Source of the DNA: Deltaproteobacteria bacterium | Lineage (GTDB): Bacteria; Desulfobacterota; Desulfomonilia; UBA1062 | Assembly (NCBI GenBank): GCA_021372395.1 | Contig: JAJFUP010000281.1 | Span: 1 to 42,133, forward strand | Reading direction: 5' to 3' | DNA length: 42,133 nucleotides | Part shown: positions 25,435 to 27,131 of the stretch, in pieces | Position numbering within the stretch: the stretch's first letter is position 1 | Layout of the letters: each line of letters begins with the position of its first letter | The notes under the pieces: model-generated | Seen by the model: the letters and a program-made list of their open reading frames with translations, nothing else | Told to the model about the DNA's origin: nothing | The model's database searches: none | Made by a program: the position numbers and the translations under genes

Positions 25435-25863
25435 ATGACCTGGACCAAGTTCTTCGGATGGTGCGTCGCTGCATCGGTGATGTTGGCCCTGCTGAACTTC
25501 AGCCTCAAGCAGATAAACAGGGAATACGGCAGAATGCTCTCGGCATGGGATCCCGGCTTCGCCGGGCGATACAAGACCTTCATGCGCTTCATGGTGAAGA
25601 ATCACCGGTTCTTCGGGATGTCTGCCATCGGCGTGTTCGCGGTTCACTTCGGCTCGGTCTGGCTGTCCGGCACCCTGTCCGTGACCGGGGCAATCACCGG
25701 CATGACGCTTCTTGCAGCGGCATCGCTGGGCGGCTATGGCTTCTACATCAACAGGAACTACCGGGCGGTGTGGCTCACCGCCCACCGGGGGTCTGCCTTC
25801 CTCCTGGCCGTCTGTATGGTCGTGCACATCATGGACAGGATCTTTCTCTTTGTGAGGCTGTAG
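25435..25863 (+). CDS. Four-helix membrane protein with two HX13H motifs (candidate di-heme b protein)
   Basis: A 142-residue, strongly hydrophobic protein with four predicted membrane helices (about 4-22, 57-77, 80-103, 113-138). Helix 2 carries His57 and His71, and helix 4 carries His117 and His131; each pair has exactly 13 residues between, and in each the first His is followed by Arg. This is the spacing and helix placement of the bis-His ligands for two b hemes in the cytochrome b core (helices B and D). No CXXCH c-type motif is present. I do not recognise the family; a minimal quinone- or electron-transfer cytochrome b is an inference from the motif. It stands alone, flanked by an EAL-HDOD gene (divergent) and a hydrolase gene (convergent), with no reductase partner nearby. 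The ribosome site (GAGAG) is weak. Confidence 0.75.
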   Translation: MTWTKFFGWCVAASVMLALLNFSLKQINREYGRMLSAWDPGFAGRYKTFMRFMVKNHRFFGMSAIGVFAVHFGSVWLSGTLSVTGAITGMTLLAAASLGGYGFYINRNYRAVWLTAHRGSAFLLAVCMVVHIMDRIFLFVRL

Positions 25864-26872: not shown

Positions 26873-26906
26873 TGGAGCTTACCGAAACGGCCGAGGGGTG
26901 AAGCAT

Positions 26907-27131
26907 ATGGAAGATACGGATTTGCAGCTCATTCGCAAGCTCATCCCAAAAGATAAAGAGCTGAAGCGGCTTTGGGATGAGCACCTCGAGTATGAGGAAA
27001 AGCTTGATCAGTTCAACAAACGAAGATACCTGAGCACGGAAGAAGAGATACGCCGCAAGGAGCTCCAGAAGCTCAAGCTGCAGGGAAAAGATTTGATTGA
27101 GGAGATCCTCCGCAGATACCGGAACGAGTGA
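26907..27131 (+). CDS. Small coiled-coil protein, DUF465/YdcH-like
   Basis: A 74-residue, highly charged helical protein. The spacing of leucines and the segment LWDEHLEYEEKLDQFNKRRYLSTEEEIRRKELQKLKLQGKD resemble DUF465 (YdcH), a short dimeric coiled coil of unknown function. The ATG at 26907 has GAGGGG eight bases upstream; a longer frame beginning at 26844 would start inside the -35 promoter box and is rejected. It is followed by a weak hairpin with a T7 run, then ilvB 51 bases on. Family resemblance is from memory of sequence character, so moderate confidence. Confidence 0.68.
   Translation: MEDTDLQLIRKLIPKDKELKRLWDEHLEYEEKLDQFNKRRYLSTEEEIRRKELQKLKLQGKDLIEEILRRYRNE

Follow-up and report, generated by a model that had tools for sequence, protein, structure and literature searches.

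The ferric reductase domain (FRD) superfamily (PF01794; NOX, ferric reductases, short and long bacterial FRE proteins) carries its heme ligands as histidine pairs on TM3 and TM5, at positions 101/115 and 209/222 of NOX2. In human NOX2, the first histidine of each pair serves the cytoplasm-side heme and the second the surface heme (PMC3591440). In cytochrome b/b6 of the bc1 and b6f complexes (helices A-D), an HX13H (or HX14H) layout is found on helices 2 and 4 (B and D). Proteins of the b561/FdnI type (PF01292) have a two-heme four-helix core with HX13H on the last helix, and DUF4405 (PF14358) is by description half of a b561 (PMC5898192). E. coli CybB is a known small four-helix cytochrome with two hemes (PMC11869295, PMC10120048), with a periplasmic basic cluster formed by R30, R35, R38, R108 and K134 (PMC11869295), while CytbX and 4D2 are minimal four-helix two-heme bundles obtained by design (PMC10120048). 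The inner-membrane proteins of porin-cytochrome clusters have two HX13H motifs in the same layout on a five-helix scaffold (PMC5566968).

The stretch of DNA analysed here, referred to as the window, comprises the 42,133 nucleotides of contig JAJFUP010000281.1 from a deltaproteobacterium of the UBA1062 lineage. We propose that one of its genes encodes what is very probably a minimal stand-alone two-heme b-type cytochrome acting as a transmembrane electron carrier. Two-heme four-helix cytochromes are a known kind; new is a stand-alone, lineage-specific variant of about 140 residues with the bc1/FRD layout and no recognised family. The features of the gene are as follows.

25435..25863, + strand: gene for the 142-residue four-helix protein (open reading frame, 17 homologues, dN/dS, GC3)
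25447..25509, + strand: TM helix 1, residues 5-25, without histidine, invariant L24-K25 at its cytoplasmic end and R29 just past it (AlphaFold2 helix 3-38, alignment)
25552..25599, + strand: predicted amphipathic cytoplasmic helix joining TM1 and TM2, residues 40-55, basic, with invariant Y46 (AlphaFold2, basic TM1-TM2 loop in the family)
25603..25668, + strand: TM helix 2, residues 57-78, first HX13H, beginning HRFFG (AlphaFold2, sequence)
25603..25605, + strand: His57 codon, predicted ligand of the cytoplasm-side heme (invariant in 18/18, aligned with the first FRD TM3 ligand)
25645..25647, + strand: His71 codon, predicted ligand of the periplasm-side heme (invariant in 18/18, aligned with the second FRD TM3 ligand)
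25681..25752, + strand: TM helix 3, residues 83-106, with invariant G85 and G99 (AlphaFold2, alignment)
25768..25857, + strand: TM helix 4, residues 112-141, second HX13H (AlphaFold2)
25783..25785, + strand: His117 codon, predicted ligand of the cytoplasm-side heme, followed by invariant R118 (invariant in 18/18, aligned with the first FRD TM5 ligand)
25825..25827, + strand: His131 codon, predicted ligand of the periplasm-side heme (invariant in 18/18, aligned with the second FRD TM5 ligand)

The open reading frame runs from an ATG to the stop codon included in its coordinates, and an in-frame stop 9 bases 5' of this ATG leaves it as the only possible nearby start. Its GC3 (0.85) resembles that of the window's other genes, and close homologues give a dN/dS of about 0.22-0.27. 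The gene is therefore real and evolves under purifying selection.

The only four histidines of the protein, H57, H71, H117 and H131, form two HX13H motifs with 13 residues between the members of each pair, and the first histidine of each pair is followed by an arginine (R58 and R118). The first-pass annotation had described a 142-residue membrane protein with these two exact motifs and both arginines, and its coordinates, length and residues were all reproduced. When four histidines are placed randomly in 142 positions, two disjoint HX13H motifs arise in 0.05% of trials. The spacing sets the two histidines of a pair 320 degrees apart, on the same helix face. In an alignment of the window protein with 17 homologues of 32-51% identity, all four histidines are invariant (18/18), with none of the free variation that the annotation had named as refuting its proposal; R118 is kept in every protein and R58 in 17 of them. 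The other residues common to all 18 are G8, L24, K25, R29, Y46, F60, G61, G85, G99 and R110. Among these, G61 (one helical turn past H57), G85 and G99 in helix 3, and R110 together with R118 close to the cytoplasmic pair are the sort of residue that would be expected in the surroundings of such hemes. The same invariance bears on whether the protein might hold a single heme, like YedZ or STEAP, or handle heme as a relay or sensor rather than carry electrons. Many short bacterial FRD proteins do bind the outer heme only (PMC3591440), and a divergent HDOD-EAL regulator gene adjoins the cytochrome gene in most loci. Such proteins, however, have lost histidines on the cytoplasm side, whereas all four are present here throughout the family, and we regard this alternative as very improbable.

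The AlphaFold2 model calculated on the family alignment (pLDDT 91.1, pTM 0.81) is a four-helix bundle with helices at residues 3-38, 40-55, 57-78, 83-106 and 112-141, that is, four long hydrophobic helices plus the amphipathic one between the first two. It agrees with the earlier assignment of the histidine pairs to helices 2 and 4 of four hydrophobic helices. Lysine and arginine are unevenly distributed over the 18 proteins, with a mean per protein of 7.3 in the TM1-TM2 loop and 2.8 in the TM3-TM4 loop, compared to 0.1 in the N-terminus and 0.2 in the TM2-TM3 loop, neither of which has an invariant basic residue. The invariant charged residues are grouped on the face that the positive-inside rule makes cytoplasmic. 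From this distribution and the positive-inside rule, we infer that H57 and H117 lie near the cytoplasm and H71 and H131 near the periplasm.

This predicted topology allows a comparison with CybB, which resembles the window protein in being small, stand-alone and made of four helices, and which is a superoxide oxidase passing electrons from superoxide to quinone. The existence of this small two-heme enzyme (PMC11869295) makes the same activity worth considering. Its periplasmic arginine cluster, as described for CybB, is absent from the window protein, in which the presumed periplasmic segments are nearly free of lysine and arginine, and relatives of the host are described as anaerobic syntrophs (PMC7082340). 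We rejected a superoxide oxidase as highly improbable because the periplasmic basic cluster is missing.

Profile searches with single sequences place the protein near several cytochrome families and inside none. The window protein scores below every curated gathering score in Pfam and matches nothing in NCBIfam. It reaches 18.3 bits against PF01292 (prokaryotic b561; gathering score 30.1) and 18.2 bits against PF14358 (DUF4405; gathering score 26.7), for which two homologues score 24.7 (L008) and 22.9 (L007). It also falls short of the PF01794 gathering score, and Ferric_reduct is unlisted for it up to E 10. At E<=1, the 18 members match Ni_hydr_CYTB (17/18, best E 7.6e-7), DUF4405 (14/18) and Ferric_reduct (8/18, best E 0.0052); the cytochrome b families PF00033 and PF13631 match none of them.

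Profile-profile comparison with hhalign, in which the partner sets were proteins taken from related genomes, was more discriminating. The ferric reductase domain gave the highest score (36.5, probability 61, E 8e-5, this E-value referring to one pairwise comparison and not to a database search), with all four histidines superposed on the FRD heme ligands. Scores were 28.1 for b6-type cytochromes, 26.8 for DUF4405 (last helix only) and 16.8 for the FdnI type. None of 60 within-segment shuffles reached the score of the FRD, b6-type or DUF4405 comparison, while the FdnI-type score was no better than shuffles. Rotated alignments leave the matching segment intact and so give no negative control; reversed and within-segment shuffled alignments were therefore added. 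The reversed profile gave a probability of 0.1% and the non-heme membrane family PssA 0.65%. Of the cytochrome b, b561 or DUF4405-like relationships envisaged earlier, the b561 and DUF4405 likenesses appear as sub-threshold matches.

The proposed analogy with the cytochrome b of bc1 and b6f complexes holds for the ligand layout, and the closest relative in sequence is instead the FRD core of NOX and ferric reductases. Like the FRD, the window protein has two histidine pairs on two helices with one helix between, and its first ligand helix begins in the same way (HRxxG or HKxxG). It differs in having four predicted helices, not six, in standing alone without a flavin/NAD dehydrogenase part, and in remaining under the Pfam threshold. 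With bc1/b6f cytochrome b it shares HX13H on helices 2 and 4, but it is without the long loops and helices E-H, its profile match is weaker than for the FRD, and in the b6-type relatives in the phylum the spacing on the last ligand helix is HX14H. The FdnI-type proteins of the host family spread their ligands over three helices (one on TM1, one on TM2, two on TM4), whereas the window protein has no conserved histidine on TM1 and both N-terminal ligands on TM2. A formate dehydrogenase b subunit of this type was ruled out by ligand layout and profile score against 23 host-family proteins; 17 of the 18 members do match PF01292 below threshold. In DUF4405, the TM3-TM4 half with its HX13H matches the window family, but the DUF4405 proteins found here with better scores consist of two helices with a single HX13H, in some cases joined to extra domains. 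The CytbX and 4D2 bundles are designed and not natural, and have no sequence relation to it. Separately, another family of the phylum has a 291-residue open reading frame (L072, G057:C72) in which two helices carry HX13H; a long insert separates its last ligand helix from the helix that follows the first pair. In architecture it may be akin to the window protein and to the porin-cytochrome inner-membrane proteins.

Foldseek comparison of the window model with the PDB ranked FdnI first (prob 0.90); most of the matches after it are cytochrome b of b6f and bc1 complexes, and the remainder include NOX5 and SpNOX. A second AlphaFold2 model, built from a homologue (L018, 35% identical) and of moderate confidence only (pLDDT 75), matched bc1 cytochrome b in each of its first eight hits (prob 0.87-0.99, TMq 0.57-0.63); b6f, NOX5, SpNOX, Dcytb, cytochrome b561 and the designed two-heme 4D2 follow lower down. 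For both models, all E-values exceed 0.3, rmsd values are mostly 6-8 Å, and the lower-ranked matches also include unrelated helical proteins. With E-values this weak, the weight of the fold evidence lies in the consistency of the match list and in no single score. The better matches of the two models are mostly two-heme b cytochromes, in keeping with the cytochrome b likeness first noticed. The viral structure library held nothing matching the protein. The family profile found only TMEM14C among PDB sequences, at E 1.4, a relationship taken as chance.

That the family matches all stay under thresholds leaves some room for the four histidines to bind a metal or serve another purpose without heme. 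We consider this very unlikely, given that they align with the FRD heme ligands and that the fold matches are mostly two-heme cytochromes. The best reading is that the window protein belongs to the two-heme cytochrome superfamily as a divergent four-helix member of minimal size, with both ligand pairs on helices 2 and 4 as in the bc1/FRD layout. The earlier suggestion that such a stand-alone protein could hold two b hemes is thereby supported by the invariant histidines, the fold matches and the FRD alignment, which together argue strongly for heme binding.

Homologues occur, one copy each, in 17 of the 23 other genomes analysed from the same bacterial family. The carriers include Ca. Phosphitivorax anaerolimi Phox-21 (MPOS01000002.1), UBA1062 and UBA6087. 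Outside the family, a profile search through 395 genomes sampled from the phylum gave no match, and a class-level profile search at E<=1 returned marginal matches only. Across 84,980 species, a single-protein scan found no relative and a sub-alignment scan, which reaches close relatives only, found the same family only. As far as these searches reach, the protein family appears to be lineage-restricted.

The gene sits among regulatory and branched-chain amino-acid genes in a block that is largely kept across the family from an acuC-like gene to leuA, in the order acuC-like, cNMP-binding, patatin, histidine kinase, MBL, HDOD-EAL, cytochrome gene, (second MBL), 75-residue open reading frame, ilvB-ilvH-ilvC, psd, pssA and leuA, several members being named by domain matches and the rest by reading of their sequences. 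Two members of the family follow, at a distance of 19-22 bases, a gene whose sequence reads as an isopropylmalate/isocitrate dehydrogenase. In five genomes without the cytochrome gene, the ilvB locus was found with the 75-residue frame and ilvB still together and no detectable remnant of the cytochrome gene in the available sequence, two of these contigs starting too near ilvB to be informative. The locus is thus stable, and the cytochrome gene has either entered it or been lost from it. We rejected a functional link to the flanking ilv/leu genes: the block keeps its ilvB end in genomes without the cytochrome gene too, so that the position is taken to reflect shared ancestry and not function, and it says little about role. 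The 75-residue frame itself (26904-27131), directly upstream of ilvB, has no Pfam match and is about 61-90% identical in nearly all relatives, including those without the cytochrome gene.

Neighbouring genes also bear on whether the protein works alone. The first-pass annotation had seen no partner gene nearby, and this extends to the family: no redox partner was recognised beside the gene in the window or in the 17 homologous loci, and no Rieske or cytochrome c1/f gene in the window. Genome-wide searches for a partner, which covered single gene families, did not identify one. The protein might nevertheless anchor in the membrane a larger complex whose genes lie elsewhere in the genome (for instance a formate dehydrogenase, a hydrogenase or a multiheme-cytochrome conduit), in effect an ordinary quinone-linked cytochrome b subunit whose gene has moved away from its partners. 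This reading concerns role only and overlaps with a two-heme cytochrome. Members of the two-heme superfamily mostly work as subunits, the related five-helix proteins with two HX13H motifs belong to porin-cytochrome clusters (PMC5566968), several formate dehydrogenases of the host family come with b cytochromes (PMC7082340), and a partner could dock on the invariant basic cytoplasmic face (K25, R29, Y46, R110). Set against these points are the partner-free loci and the formate-dehydrogenase-type b subunits, which differ in ligand layout and are not relatives by profile comparison. An anchor role is on the whole less likely than not.

An AhbD-like radical-SAM protein, scoring about 380-420 bits against a curated cut-off of 500, is encoded in 12 of 13 tested genomes including that of the window. 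These proteins suggest heme b synthesis in the hosts and make a supply of heme to the protein plausible. Other b cytochromes are encoded in all host genomes tested. One 98%-complete carrier (G004) has these other b cytochromes, no high-scoring AhbD-like gene and no UbiA match, which is probably an assembly gap. The genome of the window also encodes, at G000:C119:15488-18649 (L080), a 985-residue open frame in which a b-type cytochrome membrane region comes after numerous CxxCH motifs, seemingly a fusion of a multiheme c-type with a b-type cytochrome.

As for quinones, UbiA-type prenyltransferases are found in 12 of 13 near-complete genomes of the family, MqnA-type genes in only 1 of 13, and MenD above its cut-off in none of the 13. 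Scarce MqnA and no MenD sit oddly with the published reconstructions of Ca. Phosphitivorax, which assume menaquinone-linked reverse electron flow (PMC7082340). We therefore commit to a two-heme electron carrier across the membrane and not to a quinone partner.

The working model is as follows. The four transmembrane helices would form a bundle in which helices 2 and 4 each provide two histidines, clamping two b hemes one above the other, with H57/H117 near the cytoplasmic face and H71/H131 near the periplasmic face. Electrons would then hop from heme to heme across the membrane. As a guess, the strongly conserved basic cytoplasmic side might exchange electrons with a soluble redox protein or quinone, and the plain periplasmic side might do so with a further carrier in the membrane or periplasm. 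A broader and rather doubtful extension is that the protein is a lineage-specific, self-sufficient electron wire of syntrophic and phosphite-oxidising bacteria, a stripped-down natural bc1/FRD core without dedicated subunits that connects the general cytoplasmic or quinone pool with the outside.

If the two hemes are bound, nature would have reduced to about 140 residues the bare electron-carrying core of NADPH oxidases and respiratory cytochrome b, and CytbX and other designed minimal cytochromes would have a natural equivalent. Hosts such as Ca. Phosphitivorax live on very small energy yields and their electron routes are only partly worked out; the window protein is a small, concrete candidate, open to testing, for a membrane electron step that is missing there.
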